Source: Spirochaetia bacterium (GTDB taxonomy: Bacteria; Spirochaetota; Leptospiria; Turneriellales; JAOUOS01). From it: a stretch of 64,000 bases of DNA. Below, piece by piece: positions 13,368-27,234 of the stretch. The notes below the pieces were generated by a model. The model had not been told where the DNA came from. It worked only from the letters and a program-made list of their open reading frames with translations, and did not search any database. The number at the start of each line of letters is the position of its first letter. Position 1 is the stretch's first letter. Made by a program: the position numbers and the translations under genes. Location of the stretch: assembly GCA_029880285.1 (NCBI GenBank), contig JAOUOS010000002.1:62001-126000 (forward strand), given 5' to 3'.

Positions 13368-13446
13368 TACAAACCCTCTGCTCGGGGTCGAATCCCCTCC
13401 GATAAAAAAACCCGCTTCTTGCGGGTTTTTGTTTCGGAGAGGGAGG
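13368..13446. repeat. 79-bp direct repeat, copy 1 (terminator plus tRNA-Ser 3' end)
   Basis: This segment matches 13502-13580 with one difference (g at 13387 against t at 13521). It carries a T-arm-like palindrome (GGGTCGAATCCC region), a terminator hairpin, and then a copy of the last 12 nt of the minus-strand tRNA-Ser(GCU). The copy is truncated: the sequence after 13446 is unrelated to a tRNA. Confidence 0.85.
13404..13434. terminator. bidirectional intrinsic terminator, duplicate copy
   Basis: Stem AAAAACCCGC (13406-13415) and GCGGGTTTTT (13421-13430) with a 5-nt loop and T runs on both strands. It is an exact duplicate of the terminator behind the tRNA-Ser(GCU) gene. It could stop transcription towards uup from either side. 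Confidence 0.75.
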
Positions 13447-13501
13447 CCGCTCTCATCCATCCATGGATTACGCGGCACCTTGGCATCCATGCCAATTGGG
13501 A
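13447..13501. other. spacer between the two 79-bp repeats, with a short dyad
   Basis: No gene is seen here. It contains TTGGCAT-CC-ATGCCAA at 13480-13495, a perfect 7-bp dyad, and is more GC-rich than normal intergenic DNA in the window. Apparent reading frames here are produced by the repeats and are not credible genes. Confidence 0.5.
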
Positions 13502-13580
13502 TACAAACCCTCTGCTCGGGTTCGAATCCCCTCCGATAAAAAAACCCGCTTCTTGCGGGTTTTTGTTTCGGAGAGGGAGG
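13502..13580. repeat. 79-bp direct repeat, copy 2 (overlaps the real tRNA-Ser 3' end)
   Basis: Second copy, offset by 134 bp. Its right end (13569-13580) is the true 3' end of tRNA-Ser(GCU); its left part (13515-13535) is a tRNA T-arm/acceptor-like end (GGGTTCGAATCCC core, then CTCCG) pointing the opposite way. No tRNA body is attached to that opposite-strand end, so it is a partial copy. Confidence 0.85.
13536..13568 (-). terminator. intrinsic terminator of tRNA-Ser(GCU)
   Basis: Read on the minus strand directly after the tRNA discriminator base: AAAAACCCGC (13564-13555), loop AAGAA, GCGGGTTTTT (13549-13540) and further T residues. The stem also works on the plus strand. Confidence 0.8.
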
Positions 13581-13657
13581 GATTCGAACCCTCGGTCCAG
13601 GTTGCCCCAGACGACGGTTTAGCAAACCGTTCCTTTCGGCCTCTCAGGCACCTCTCC
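13569..13657 (-). tRNA. tRNA-Ser (anticodon GCU)
   Basis: 89 nt, class II. Acceptor GGAGAGG pairs with CCTCTCC, with discriminator G. The anticodon arm ACGGT-TTGCTAA-ACCGT gives anticodon GCU. There is a long variable arm, and the T-arm is GAGGG-TTCGAAT-CCCTC. CCA is not encoded; the next bases are AAA. It decodes AGC/AGU. The gene is flanked on both sides by partial copies of itself. Confidence 0.95.
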
Positions 13658-13684
13658 ATTTCAGTCGAGGCGCCTGTACGTTGT
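13642..13684. repeat. 43-bp direct repeat, copy 1 (tRNA-Ser 5' end and upstream hairpin)
   Basis: Identical to 13775-13817, 133 bp away. It covers the first ~16 nt of the real tRNA-Ser(GCU), its 9-nt upstream spacer and most of the nearest upstream hairpin. Confidence 0.85.
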
Positions 13685-13699
13685 GTCAGGCACCTCTCC
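13667..13699 (-). repeat. tRNA-Ser(GCU) 5'-end hairpin, unit nearest the gene
   Basis: On the minus strand the tRNA start GGAGAGGTGCCTG is followed by a 10-nt loop (13677-13686) and then CAGGCGCCTC (13667-13676), which pairs with GAGGTGCCTG (13696-13687) through 10 positions including one G-U. A 9-nt spacer separates it from the true tRNA start at 13657. Confidence 0.75.
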
Positions 13700-13757
13700 T
13701 ATTCTTCATTAAGACAGTAATTTCTTTTTTTGTTTAATTCTTATTTAGTTCCCTTTC

Positions 13758-13790
13758 GAGTTGCCTGTATTTCATCTCAGGCACCTCTCC
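13758..13790 (-). repeat. tRNA-Ser(GCU) 5'-end hairpin, middle unit
   Basis: Again the exact first 13 nt of the tRNA (13790-13778), a 10-nt loop of different sequence (13768-13777), then CAGGCAACTC (13758-13767), which pairs with one mismatch. The stem is kept while the loop has changed. About 58 bp of AT-rich DNA lies between this unit and the one nearest the gene. Confidence 0.7.
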
Positions 13791-13817
13791 ATTTCAGTCG
13801 AGGCGCCTGTACGTTGT
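13775..13817. repeat. 43-bp direct repeat, copy 2
   Basis: Identical to 13642-13684; here the tRNA-start sequence is not followed by a tRNA body but belongs to an upstream hairpin unit. Confidence 0.85.
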
Positions 13818-13830
13818 TTCAGGCACTCTC
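13800..13830 (-). repeat. tRNA-Ser(GCU) 5'-end hairpin, distal unit
   Basis: Degenerate third unit: GAGAG-TGCCTG (one base lost relative to the tRNA start), a 10-nt loop (13810-13819), then CAGGCGCCTC (13800-13809). A 9-nt spacer identical to that before the real tRNA separates it from the middle unit. A further decayed fragment may lie near 13896-13907 (GCACCTCTT). Confidence 0.6.
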
Positions 13831-13915
13831 TTCATATTCTTTCTCTTCGTCATGCTTACACGTTGTCAATCGAGCGTTGCTCGTTCACTTCGTACCATGC
13901 ACCTCTTATTTAAAT
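13831..13915. other. intergenic stretch without recognisable gene
   Basis: Between the distal GCU hairpin and the large palindrome. It holds a small hairpin (CGAGCG-TT-GCTCG) and a possible decayed tRNA-start fragment, otherwise nothing. Confidence 0.4.
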
Positions 13916-13958
13916 TTAATGGATTGCCGCGGCGCTTTGCGCCGCGGCAATCCATTAA
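13916..13958. repeat. perfect 20-bp hairpin with 3-nt loop, GC-rich core
   Basis: Arms 13916-13935 and 13939-13958 are fully complementary with loop TTT. The core GGATTGCCGCGGCGC is far more GC-rich than the surroundings. It lies 10 nt beyond the 3' end of tRNA-Ser(UGA) and lacks a clear T run, so it may end or protect that transcript, or be a dispersed palindromic element. A related hairpin (CCGCGGC-TTT-GCCGCGG) is at 27198-27224. Confidence 0.75.
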
Positions 13959-13968
13959 TACATACTTT

Positions 13969-14053
13969 CGGAGGAGGTAGGATTCGAACCCACGGACCCT
14001 TTCAGGTCAACGGTTTTCAAGACCGCCGCCTTCAACCACTCGGCCACTCCTCC
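13969..14053 (-). tRNA. tRNA-Ser (anticodon UGA)
   Basis: 85 nt, class II. Acceptor GGAGGAG pairs with CTCCTCC, with discriminator G. The anticodon loop CTTGAAA gives UGA. The variable arm is GACC-TGAAA-GGGTC-like, and the T-arm is GTGGG-TTCGAAT-CCTAC. No encoded CCA. It decodes UCN serine codons. Immediately upstream is a 52-bp tandem array built from its own first 13 nt. Confidence 0.95.
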
Positions 14054-14209
14054 TAATTTTTTCATCGGAAGAGTGGCCGAAGCTTACACTAACGGCCACT
14101 CCTCCTAATTTTTTCATCGGAAGAGTGGCCGAAGCTTACACTAACGGACACTCCTCCTAATTTTTTCATCGGAAGAGTGGCCGAAGCTTACACTAACGGA
14201 CACTCCTCC
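14054..14209 (-). repeat. 52-bp tandem array of tRNA-Ser(UGA) 5'-end hairpins, three copies
   Basis: Three 52-bp units, read on the minus strand towards the tRNA. Each unit has four 13-nt segments: the tRNA start (GGAGGAGTGKCCG), a loop (TTAGTGTAAGCTT), an inverted copy (CGGCCACTCTTCC) and a spacer (GATGAAAAAATTA). The first segments are at 14197-14209, 14145-14157 and 14093-14105; the array then runs straight into the real tRNA start at 14053. The unit nearest the gene has the authentic GTGGCCG; the two distal ones have GTGTCCG. Units are otherwise identical. This is not CRISPR-like: there are no unique spacers. Confidence 0.9.
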
Positions 14210-15298: not shown

Positions 15299-18085
15299 AT
15301 GAAAAACTATAATTGGAGATTTTTTTTAAAAACAATAGTACTACTAGGGTTAATAACTCAAACACTATATGCCTCTGTGGTCAGTGAGGCCCATGAGACA
15401 GGCCACGCGGCCTCAGTAGTGGGCGCAGGCGGTATCTCAAGCCCCCTTTTTGCCCCGCAGGAAGGCTCTTTTTCAAATTCTTCTCTTTTAAGTGAATTTG
15501 AAAGAAAAGGCGGCGGAATAAATTTTATGTACGGCGATAACCTGCATGGCGCATCAGGCCTATTTTACATACCGTCTTCACTAGGAGTTCTTGGTATTTC
15601 GGGCGGTTACGCGATGGCTTCTAATATTTTAGAAGGTTTAGAACAGTACTATTATCTTGAACTGGGATACGGTAGAGCGTTTACTGATAATTTTTCTTTT
15701 GGATTAAGATTACGTCCTTCAGTAGGTACCGCTATAGAAGGTTCATTTTTCGGCTTAGGTATAGATCCTGCTGTTTTATATAATACCCATTCAAATATTG
15801 AAATTTCAAGCGGCTTGGGTTTATACGATTTCTCCTTTTATCTTTTAGGAAGAAATATCGCATTAAATATGGGAGACGGAAGTGACTCGGCACCCAGACT
15901 CTCGGTTCACGGCGGTATGCAAAGCGGTATTTTTAAATATGATAAATTTTCATCAAATTTATTGGTTGAACTTATGGGTATAGGAAATTTTAAAACCGTA
16001 CCTATTCACTTAGGGCTTAATTTACAGTATTGGCTTTTTTCACTTAGAGCCGGATACATGATCTCTGAAGAAAGTACACTCTTTGATGGTTTTAGCGTTG
16101 GCGCGGGGGTAAACTATACAAACGATCTGGGAAATATATCTTTTCAATACGGTGTTTTACCATCTACAGATAAAAGGGCATCTACTTATCATTTCTTTTC
16201 TTTAACGGCAAGTTATGGCCAAATTGACAGAAAACCGCCAGAAGTAGAAGTAGCATATGATGTTCAGGATTTTTCGCCTAACTGGGATGGTAAACAAGAC
16301 TATATAAACTTTGAAGTGGATGTTTCTGATGACAGCCCAATAAATGCGTGGAATTTGACTATCAAAGATTCAACAGGCAAAGCCGTTAGAGTTTTTGAAA
16401 ACGATAAACGTCTAATGGAAAAATCATTTGGCATAGGGGATTTCTTCGCGCACTTTTTTAAAAGCCAGGAATCTTTGGTCATTCCTTCAAAAATCAGATG
16501 GGATGGAACATCAGGCGCAGTGGCCATTAATGAAGTAAAAGCGGCATCACAGGGGCAGTCTAATGTACTGCCTGACGGTATTTATACATATGAATTTATT
16601 ACTGAAGATATTAAAGAAAATAAATCAGCACCTGTAACGGGACAAATTAAAATTGACACAAATGTTCCGCAAGTATTAGCGTCTCCTTCTACAAATTTAT
16701 TCAGCCCTAATGGTGATGGCTCACTAGACGAAATTCAAATTTTACATGAAAAATCAGTTGAACCAGATGATATCATAGAAGCACGCATTGAAGATGCCGA
16801 AGGAAATATAGTTAAAAAATATAACTGGCAGGGCAGCAATATTCCAAATTCTCTTTCATGGGATGGTACTGATGAAAACAATAATCCATCTTCAGACGGA
16901 GTTTATAATTACATTATAACTTCAAAAGACAGCGCGGGCAATTCATCTACTCATGAAATTCAAAATATAACTCTTACCAGAGCACTAGATTCAGTGGATA
17001 TCAGCATCTCTGATAAAGGCTTTAGCCCAAACAACGATGGTGTATCTGATATAGTTACTATTACACCATCGTTATCAAGCAAAGACGGTCTTATTTTCTG
17101 GGAAATCGTTGTTACTACAAAAAAAGTTGAAATAAAAGGCGATCCTGATTCTGAATTTCCTAAAGAACCAGTTAAAAAATGGCAGGGTAATGATATAAAT
17201 TCTCTTCCCGGCGAAATAAAATGGGCCGGTTTAAATAACGAGAATACTCTTGCTCAAGATGGATTATATTATTTGACAATGCGAGCACGATACAAAAACG
17301 GCAACCGCCCTGTTTCTTTTAGTAAAGAAGTTGTAGTTGATAAAACAGCGCCAAAGGCCGAAGTTGAGGCTCAGCTATACACTTTCTCACCCGACGGAGA
17401 CGGTGAAAACGAAGAACAAACCTTTAACCTTTACGTAAAAGATGATATTTATAATGAACGTACCGAAGGGAAAAATAAAGTAAAAAACTGCGCGGTTAGT
17501 ATATATGAAATAAGTTATGACGATAAAGAGCAAAAAGTAAGAATTCCCTTTAAAACTTTTAAAATGGAAACCGAAATTCCCGAAAAAATAATATGGGATG
17601 GAAAAAGCGACGCCGGGCATCTTGTAGAAAGTGCTACCATTTACGAATATGAAATAAACGCTGAAGATATTTATGGTAATAAAACCCTGTCATCTATCGG
17701 AAAATTTGAAACAGATATTTTAGTTTTAGTTACTGAAAGAGGCTTGAAAGTAAGACTTTCAAATGTTGAGTTTGAATTTGGTAAAGCCGATTTAAAAGAA
17801 AAATCTAAAGATCTTTTAGATAGGCTTGCTACTATTCTTGATAGATACCCAAAATATAAAATTAGAGTAGAGGGCCACTCAGATGACATTGGTAAAGAAG
17901 AATACAATTTATCTCTTTCAGAGAAAAGAGCAAAATCGGTAATGGATTATCTGATTGAAGAAGGTATAGATACAGAAAGAATTTCGTATCAAGGTTTAGG
18001 CGAAACTTCTCCGCTTTTACCCAATACTTCATGGTACAATAGAAGCAGAAACCGCAGAGTAGAGTTCATTTTGTTGAAAGAATAA
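15299..18085 (+). CDS. large OmpA-family outer-membrane protein with FlgD-like repeats
   Basis: 928 residues. A signal peptide (MKNYNWRFFLK, hydrophobic core, LYA-S) is followed by a PorV-like barrel region about 55-300 rich in Gly and aromatic strands. Next come several Ig-like repeats of the FlgD/gliding type, each opening with an FSPNxDG motif (FSPNWDG, FSPNGDG, FSPNNDG, FSPDGDG) and closing with a W-D/G-T/K-x motif. A C-terminal OmpA domain (about 820-928) has FEFGKADL, VEGHSDDIG, LSEKRAKSV and NRSRNRRVEF, so the peptidoglycan-binding Asp and Arg are present. The protein therefore probably spans outer membrane and cell wall. An AAAGGA site lies about 9 nt before the ATG. The last codons form an inverted repeat with the end of rsfS. 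Confidence 0.88.
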   Translation: MKNYNWRFFLKTIVLLGLITQTLYASVVSEAHETGHAASVVGAGGISSPLFAPQEGSFSNSSLLSEFERKGGGINFMYGDNLHGASGLFYIPSSLGVLGISGGYAMASNILEGLEQYYYLELGYGRAFTDNFSFGLRLRPSVGTAIEGSFFGLGIDPAVLYNTHSNIEISSGLGLYDFSFYLLGRNIALNMGDGSDSAPRLSVHGGMQSGIFKYDKFSSNLLVELMGIGNFKTVPIHLGLNLQYWLFSLRAGYMISEESTLFDGFSVGAGVNYTNDLGNISFQYGVLPSTDKRASTYHFFSLTASYGQIDRKPPEVEVAYDVQDFSPNWDGKQDYINFEVDVSDDSPINAWNLTIKDSTGKAVRVFENDKRLMEKSFGIGDFFAHFFKSQESLVIPSKIRWDGTSGAVAINEVKAASQGQSNVLPDGIYTYEFITEDIKENKSAPVTGQIKIDTNVPQVLASPSTNLFSPNGDGSLDEIQILHEKSVEPDDIIEARIEDAEGNIVKKYNWQGSNIPNSLSWDGTDENNNPSSDGVYNYIITSKDSAGNSSTHEIQNITLTRALDSVDISISDKGFSPNNDGVSDIVTITPSLSSKDGLIFWEIVVTTKKVEIKGDPDSEFPKEPVKKWQGNDINSLPGEIKWAGLNNENTLAQDGLYYLTMRARYKNGNRPVSFSKEVVVDKTAPKAEVEAQLYTFSPDGDGENEEQTFNLYVKDDIYNERTEGKNKVKNCAVSIYEISYDDKEQKVRIPFKTFKMETEIPEKIIWDGKSDAGHLVESATIYEYEINAEDIYGNKTLSSIGKFETDILVLVTERGLKVRLSNVEFEFGKADLKEKSKDLLDRLATILDRYPKYKIRVEGHSDDIGKEEYNLSLSEKRAKSVMDYLIEEGIDTERISYQGLGETSPLLPNTSWYNRSRNRRVEFILLKE

Positions 18086-18104
18086 TTAAATTTATTCTTT
18101 CAAC
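18073..18104. terminator. inverted repeat across two convergent stop codons
   Basis: Arms 18073-18085 and 18092-18104 (GTTGAAAGAATAA and complement) are perfect over 13 bp with a 6-nt loop. Each arm encodes the last residues Leu-Lys-Glu-stop of one of the two facing genes. It may act as a shared transcription end, though there is no strong T run. Confidence 0.5.
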
Positions 18105-18490
18105 TTAATACTTAGCGCTTTGCTCCAGAGAGCTTCTAAATTATAGTGCTGTCGTGTTTCTTCGGTAAAAATATGAATTATGAATTCACCTTCATCAAGA
18201 ATAACCCATCCGCTTTCATAATCCTGCTCTTTTGGTAATACTTTCATAAATACATTATTTTCTTTTAACAAATGAATAACTTCTGAAGAAACTTTTTTTA
18301 AATGTAAAGATGAAAGTGAAGTTACAATAAGAAAATATGATAAATAGCTGTGAATATTACTAAGATCTAAAACAACAATATTTTTTGCTTTATTATCTTC
18401 ACACAACCCGGCAATTTTTAATAATAACTCAGGAAGCTGGTTTTTAGCATTTTTCGTCTTATCTAATTTTTCTTTTTTTGAGGTACTCAT
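18092..18490 (-). CDS. rsfS: ribosomal silencing factor RsfS
   Basis: 132 residues of the RsfS/Iojap family, which binds ribosomal protein L14 and blocks subunit joining when growth slows. Family landmarks are visible: VVLDLSNIHSYLSYFLIVTS, then ESGWVILDEGEFIIHIFTEETRQHYNLEALW. The first ~20 residues are a charged extension. It is last in the cluster nnrS-metH-yqeK-LCP-rsfS, the last three being a conserved grouping in many bacteria. It is 7 nt after the LCP gene. Confidence 0.92.
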   Translation of the reverse strand: MSTSKKEKLDKTKNAKNQLPELLLKIAGLCEDNKAKNIVVLDLSNIHSYLSYFLIVTSLSSLHLKKVSSEVIHLLKENNVFMKVLPKEQDYESGWVILDEGEFIIHIFTEETRQHYNLEALWSKALSIKLKE

Positions 18491-27181: not shown

Positions 27182-27197
27182 ATAATTTTTTATACTA

Positions 27198-27224
27198 ACA
27201 ATCCGCGGCTTTGCCGCGGATTGT
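27198..27224. repeat. 12-bp perfect hairpin between CpxP-like and CpxR-like genes
   Basis: Arms ACAATCCGCGGC (27198-27209) and its complement (27213-27224) with a TTT loop. It shares the CCGCGGC-TTT-GCCGCGG core style with the larger hairpin at 13916-13958. Within the operon it could act as a partial terminator that lowers regulator expression relative to the periplasmic protein. Confidence 0.65.
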
Positions 27225-27234
27225 AAAATACAAT

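Follow-up and report, generated by a model that had tools for sequence, protein, structure and literature searches.

Tandem and folded-back copies of tRNA ends beside tRNA genes in the spirochaete order Turneriellales

In a 64-kb stretch of spirochaete DNA (hereafter the window), tandem copies of the 5' end of a tRNA, and likewise of its 3' end, adjoin the intact gene, with a short loop and an inverted copy following. Copies of a tRNA's own ends were found at many tRNA genes in at least 10 genomes of the order, and a recurrent genome process acting on many tRNA genes across the order, not a one-off accident, is strongly supported. The case for a repeated process, originally made from the letters of the window, is thereby upheld. 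The coincidence that had prompted it, i.e. three units at each of two tRNA-Ser genes, is not special, as loci elsewhere carry one, two, three or four units. Our preferred reading, to which we assign a probability of roughly 55%, is that a recurrent DNA process acts on tRNA genes and leaves the units behind as debris without function.

The features of the two tRNA-Ser loci in the window are as follows.

13368..13446, minus strand: the 3' unit again, offset by 134 nt
13502..13580, minus strand: 3' side of tRNA-Ser(GCU), with the tRNA's final 12 nt, a terminator-like hairpin and the inverted tRNA 3' end
13568-13658 (ARAGORN; acceptor starts at 13657), minus strand: tRNA-Ser(GCU), intact
13658..13666, minus strand: spacer GACTGAAAT, separating the last unit (c) from tRNA-Ser(GCU)
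13667..13699, minus strand: unit c, a copy of tRNA-Ser(GCU) nt 1-13, a 10-nt loop and the inverted arm CAGGCGCCTC
13758..13790, minus strand: unit b, a copy of tRNA-Ser(GCU) nt 1-16, a different loop and the inverted arm CAGGCAACTC, with one stem mismatch
13791-13799, minus strand: second occurrence of spacer GACTGAAAT, following unit a
13800..13830, minus strand: unit a, with a degenerate 5' arm, and loop and inverted arm nearly as in unit c
13871..13885, minus strand: core AACGAGCAACGCTCG
13914..13960, strand not assigned: 22-bp palindrome with a TTT loop, between the two tRNA-Ser genes
13969..14053 (ARAGORN), minus strand: tRNA-Ser(UGA), intact
14067..14105, minus strand: UGA unit 3, closest to the tRNA
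14119..14157, minus strand: UGA unit 2
14171..14209, minus strand: UGA unit 1, the transcription entry point if the upstream TTGACG box (read by eye) is a promoter

Read on the minus strand, unit c (13699-13667) has the arm/loop/arm sequence GGAGAGGTGCCTG/ACACAACGTA/CAGGCGCCTC and unit b (13790-13758) GGAGAGGTGCCTG/AGATGAAATA/CAGGCAACTC. Unit a combines the degenerate 5' arm AGAGAGTGCCTG with a loop almost that of unit c and an inverted arm identical to it. Within the 64-kb window, the exact first 13-mer of tRNA-Ser(GCU) was found only in units b and c and in the tRNA itself, and unit a is more than two mismatches away from it. The sequence-only reading, according to which all three units start with the first ~13 nt of the tRNA, is consequently exact for units b and c and fails for unit a. 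The changed loop that it described was confirmed in unit b, the stem of which also has a mismatch, and the U-G pair that it had described in an arm was recovered in both units a and c. The parallel at tRNA-Ser(UGA), with three hairpin units derived from that tRNA's own 5' end, was confirmed. A 58-nt spacer accompanies unit b and is absent from units a and c. The tRNA copies in the units stop at nt 13-16, the start of the D-loop, and the resemblance of the tail of unit b to the continuing tRNA is not significant (p of 0.11). Folding energies of the three GCU units are -19.4, -11.1 and -13.4 kcal/mol, with z-scores against dinucleotide shuffles of -5.8, -3.9 and -3.8; the corresponding values for the three UGA units are -27.5, -20.3 and -20.3 kcal/mol and -7.6, -4.8 and -4.8. 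Apart from the tRNAs, no Rfam match exceeded the gathering score. A BLAST search of the window genome with a 141-nt query (tRNA plus unit) gave no copy outside the Ser locus, and since the units are not dispersed in their own genome, they appear to have arisen locally. AACGAGCRAMGCKMG has two exact matches in the 3.3-Mb window genome, both of them in tRNA arrays (13871..13885, and 3' of tRNA-Asn).

The UGA array is a direct tandem repeat of 52 nt whose final, partial copy is tRNA-Ser(UGA) itself, which is why the UGA units begin with the first bases of the tRNA. The inverted arm, and not the tandem 5' arm, is the part of these units that needs explanation. When the UGA leader and its gene are folded together, the predicted MFE structure has the leader copies base-paired to portions of the tRNA; the array would be, if anything, a hazard at equilibrium, and co-transcriptional folding may avoid the mispairing. 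Upstream of the array, at about 14258-14230 on the minus strand, a TTGACG box was read by eye, and this box also occurs at the same place in G001, which belongs to another genus of the same family (locus L033). A consensus promoter scan did not call this box, which nevertheless suggests that the hairpin array may be transcribed.

At the 3' ends the same topology appears in mirror image, with the hairpin taking in the terminator-like stem. The two copies of the 79-nt 3' unit of tRNA-Ser(GCU), at 13368 and 13502, are 99% identical, and mirror-image copies of the tRNA 3' end were found downstream of Ser, Asn, Glu and Asp tRNAs in genomes of the order. In G001 both the 5' and the 3' features are present, with changed loops and spacers. 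At the Escherichia coli tyrT locus, 178-bp tandem repeats (rtT RNA) follow the tRNA gene, and every repeat opens with a copy of the tRNA's 3' end. The plan of the 134-nt repeats at 13368-13580 looks alike: a direct repeat starts with the tRNA 3' end and includes the terminator. We know of no inverted copy and no 5'-end arrays in the tyrT case.

Other palindromes were also observed in the window. The one at 13914-13960 has a counterpart at the equivalent place in G001, with an entirely different sequence, and its GC-rich, TTT-looped core resembles that of another palindrome at 27195-27227 (ATTGCCGCGGCGC and AATCCGCGGC, respectively). A near-perfect 18-bp palindrome (18068-18109) lies across the ends of the convergent genes for an OmpA-like protein and RsfS, both proteins ending in LKE, and is another inverted copy adjoining its source.

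Because the stems follow each tRNA's own sequence, the spread of the units was assessed by scoring the ends of each tRNA against its own flanks, with the ends of other isotypes as the null and a cut-off score of at least 11. The survey covered 18 genomes of the order, the closest of them to the window genome coming from a different genus of its family, and including one (G007) that is almost certainly the closed Turneriella parva genome, so that the arrays cannot be attributed to metagenome assembly. At this cut-off, copies of a tRNA's own 5' end were found upstream of six out of 68 tRNAs in the window's family (0.07 expected), seven out of 95 in two other families, f3 and f2 (0.33 expected), and one out of 37 in family f4. 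In other orders, one out of 39 tRNAs scored, and this match is a near-whole-gene tRNA duplicate. The loci scoring in this way include Ser(GCU), Ser(UGA), Ser(GGA), Asn, Val, Thr and Ala; copies of the own 5' end also lie upstream of Met, Arg, His and further tRNAs. In G007, tRNA-Asn and its 5' copy both read TCCCGAATAGC, and in G008, G010 and G012 both read TCCCGGATAGC; as judged from these sequences, the 5' arms agree, species by species, with the tRNA that they precede. In G012 (Met and Arg) and G013 (Arg and His), units that end in an inverted arm lie upstream of the tRNA, on the same plan as the Ser units of the window. When the exact unit pattern was sought in all GTDB species, nine matches were obtained, three of them in spirochaete MAGs of this order and two actinobacterial. 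The four in Lachnospiraceae/Clostridiales had no tRNA gene nearby, look like chance, and were discarded.

Pairing in the stems was analyzed for nine unit types, comprising 117 pairs, of which 89 are Watson-Crick, 10 are G-U and 18 are broken. Changes in the inverted arm alone account for eight G-U pairs and 11 breaks. The inner five pairs are intact in every GCU unit, while UGA units 1 and 2 break one. More generally, across five genomes almost every unit retains its inner five pairs and the outer pairs decay, with breaks more frequent than compensation. Changes on both sides of the stem were found in G004 only, whose 5' arm no longer matches the tRNA but still takes part in a 10-bp stem. Such conservation falls short of what a conserved leader RNA should show and is in line with copies decaying once they have formed, although in G004 selection may have acted, or template switching may have repaired the stem. 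The notion of a selected structure, offered earlier as an alternative to accident, is thus not supported by a comparison with relatives in which 18 out of 117 pairs are broken and compensation is confined to a single genome.

A selected leader RNA could be imagined to shield or pace tRNA folding and 5' maturation, or to work as a switch, the inverted arm pairing with either the leader copy or the 5' strand of the tRNA. The units do sit between a promoter-like box and the tRNA, their predicted folding is strong, and hairpin units have persisted at Ser(GCU) in three families, to which the two-sided changes of G004 may be added. On the other hand, unit number, loop, spacer and outer stem all vary freely, breaks outnumber compensations, orthologous tRNAs lack units in most genomes of the order, and neither whole pseudo-tRNAs nor 3' copies beyond a terminator-like hairpin would be explained. 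We therefore consider such a function improbable. Scars of lost integrative elements, which would have used tRNA genes as attachment sites and left displaced tRNA fragments behind, are a far weaker candidate still. At several loci the direct copies of tRNA 3' ends do begin with the T-loop, a common feature of attachment sites, but this reading does not fit the spacings of 40-130 nt, nor the inverted arms, the copies of 5' ends and the inserts in D-loops. No integrase or transposase was found among the five genes examined beside the Ser locus, which encode a sensor kinase, an ABC-F protein, a DUF2225 protein, the OmpA-like protein and RsfS.

At several loci of the order the copies are truncated, or are complete pseudo-tRNAs whose D-, anticodon- or T-loop has received a hairpin. 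Tandem pseudo-tRNAs with inserts in D-, anticodon-, variable or T-loops occur at L213 and L215, as well as at Ala and Val; those of Val, Arg and Ala at L215, L213 and L240 (in G007 and G008) are whole, have hairpins inserted into more than one loop, and adjoin the intact gene. The tRNA-Asn leader in G008, G010 and G012 contains nt 1-11 of the tRNA, an insert beginning ACCGAAGACGGAG and then nt 14 to roughly 32, followed by a leader stretch that runs up to the intact gene, the insert in G012 being TCCGAAGACGGAG; the same insert core lies within the 5' copy of tRNA-Val in G015. This D-loop insert of the genus Turneriella is a dispersed double-hairpin element with core ACCGAAGACGGAGA, which also occurs away from tRNAs. 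Allowing up to one mismatch, the core GCACCGAAGACGGAG was found 20, 19 and 13 times in G007, G008 and G012, respectively, as against zero times for the reversed pattern. The exact 14-mer core is repeated in Turneriella only, within the class, and ACCGAAGACGGAGA had no match in G000 and G001, being absent from the window's family. Among core-pattern matches in the fetched loci, 30 out of 70 lie directly after nt 11 of a tRNA (the 11 preceding bases being matched to the tRNA with up to two mismatches), and others lie outside tRNA sequence, where some can be seen to occupy a palindrome's loop, e.g. GTCACCCT..AGGGTGAC. The second hairpin changes in sequence yet stays paired, as read by eye (GACC/GGTC, GAGC/GCTC, GATGCG/CGCATC, GAGTCG/CGACTC). 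Automated tests of hairpin closure, the second hairpin and flank complementarity were weak or negative, probably owing to variable element ends. At L284 in G008, the double-hairpin core occurs in three tandem copies 90 nt apart, away from any tRNA. No match to a Turneriella array was found in the plasmid collection.

These inserts raise the possibility that mobile double-hairpin elements, preferring hairpin loops including those of tRNAs, are the primary cause throughout the order, the window units being old, eroded insertions of a lineage-specific element. The dispersal of the core, its placement after tRNA nt 11 or in palindromes, and the variable but paired second hairpin all speak for such elements, as does a 3' core common to the tRNA-Ser and tRNA-Asn arrays of the window genome and to tRNA-Glu of G001. 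We nonetheless regard this explanation as rather unlikely, given that the window unit matches at the Ser locus only, that the Turneriella core is missing from the window's family, that the hairpin-closure and flank tests gave little, and that no mobilizing enzyme was linked to the core, the Y1 transposase genes being flanked by other, mostly TTAA-centered palindromes. Mobilization of the RAYT/REP type was considered and rejected: both the window genome and related ones carry Y1 genes, but CGARGACGG was found in none of 17 Y1 loci, and the window's own unit likewise gave no match outside the Ser locus. The Y1/RAYT loci themselves (L217-L231, in G000, G006, G007, G008, G010 and G015) mostly show long TTAA-centered palindromes, e.g. 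GTAGCCAGGGGT-TTAA-ACCCCTGGCTAC, and look like a REP system of their own. A more speculative version, to which we give somewhat less credence, has tRNA-targeting mini-elements throughout the order, each event inserting a hairpin in a tRNA loop and leaving a tandem copy that restores a functional tRNA, so that the elements spread without killing the host; the window's Ser arrays would then be one lineage's version.

According to the reading that we prefer, i.e. debris of duplication and fold-back, a tandem duplication of a tRNA end would first create a redundant copy, after which fold-back (template-switch) synthesis would add an inverted arm at the D-loop (or T-loop) position of that copy. In Turneriella, the arm may have been added instead by insertion of the dispersed double-hairpin element. 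Unequal recombination between the direct repeats would multiply the units and keep their 5' arms identical to the tRNA, with the intact tRNA remaining as the array's last member. For the window, copying on the spot is the most economical account, since the unit is not dispersed in its genome, whereas in Turneriella the double-hairpin element occupies the same site in tRNA copies, and insertion would therefore contribute there too; the two may be a single process at different ages. The hairpins are probably transcribed within the pre-tRNA leader, with no demonstrated role. In favor of debris are the excess of own-end copies over the null, the agreement of the 5' arms with the local tRNA, the tandem UGA repeat ending in the tRNA, the lack of copies elsewhere in the window genome, the mirrored topology at 3' ends, the outward decay of stem pairing and the predicted mispairing of leader copies with the tRNA, the last as expected of a by-product. 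Against it are the retention of the inner five pairs and the 10-bp stem kept in G004 despite divergence of the 5' arm. The stable mini-loops GUAA, GAA and AAA, frequent in the loops of unrelated units, also count against it, as they seem too regular to have come from random joins.

Double-hairpin elements (DHE) occur in the mitochondrial DNA of Allomyces. Sponge mitochondrial DNA contains repetitive hairpin-forming elements, RHE (PMC2800124). Like the present inserts, DHE and RHE are short, dispersed and hairpin-made, with stems that are kept and an enzyme that is not known, and the Turneriella insert likewise consists of two adjacent hairpins. Here, in contrast, the elements lie in bacterial chromosomes, are concentrated in tRNA D-loops and are tied to tandem copies of tRNA ends, and the window units themselves are not dispersed. 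REP/BIME and the Rickettsia palindromic elements are small palindromic repeats, possibly mobile and able to insert into genes (PMC3733652). The present hairpins resemble them in being small, palindromic and possibly mobile, and differ from REP/BIME in that their stems copy the adjacent tRNA and that the RAYT-type Y1 genes of the order adjoin other, mostly TTAA-centered palindromes. Template switching has been documented to generate perfect hairpins; in template-switch (quasipalindrome) mutations, a neighboring sequence is copied in inverted form in a single step, and stems can be restored in this way (PMC8794818). At the window units, too, the inverted copy lies beside its source. What distinguishes the present case is the link to tandem tRNA-end arrays throughout an order, a link not found previously in the searched literature; in the open-licence literature, no report of tRNA-end hairpin arrays was found.

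Hairpins preceding tRNA genes need not, then, be regulatory RNAs, and caution is called for in interpreting them. In a cultured Turneriella with a closed genome as well as in its uncultured relatives, tRNA genes, usually conserved anchors, are repeatedly copied, folded back and decorated with hairpins, whereby the origin of perfect hairpins, by template switch or by double-hairpin insertion, becomes directly testable in a bacterium.
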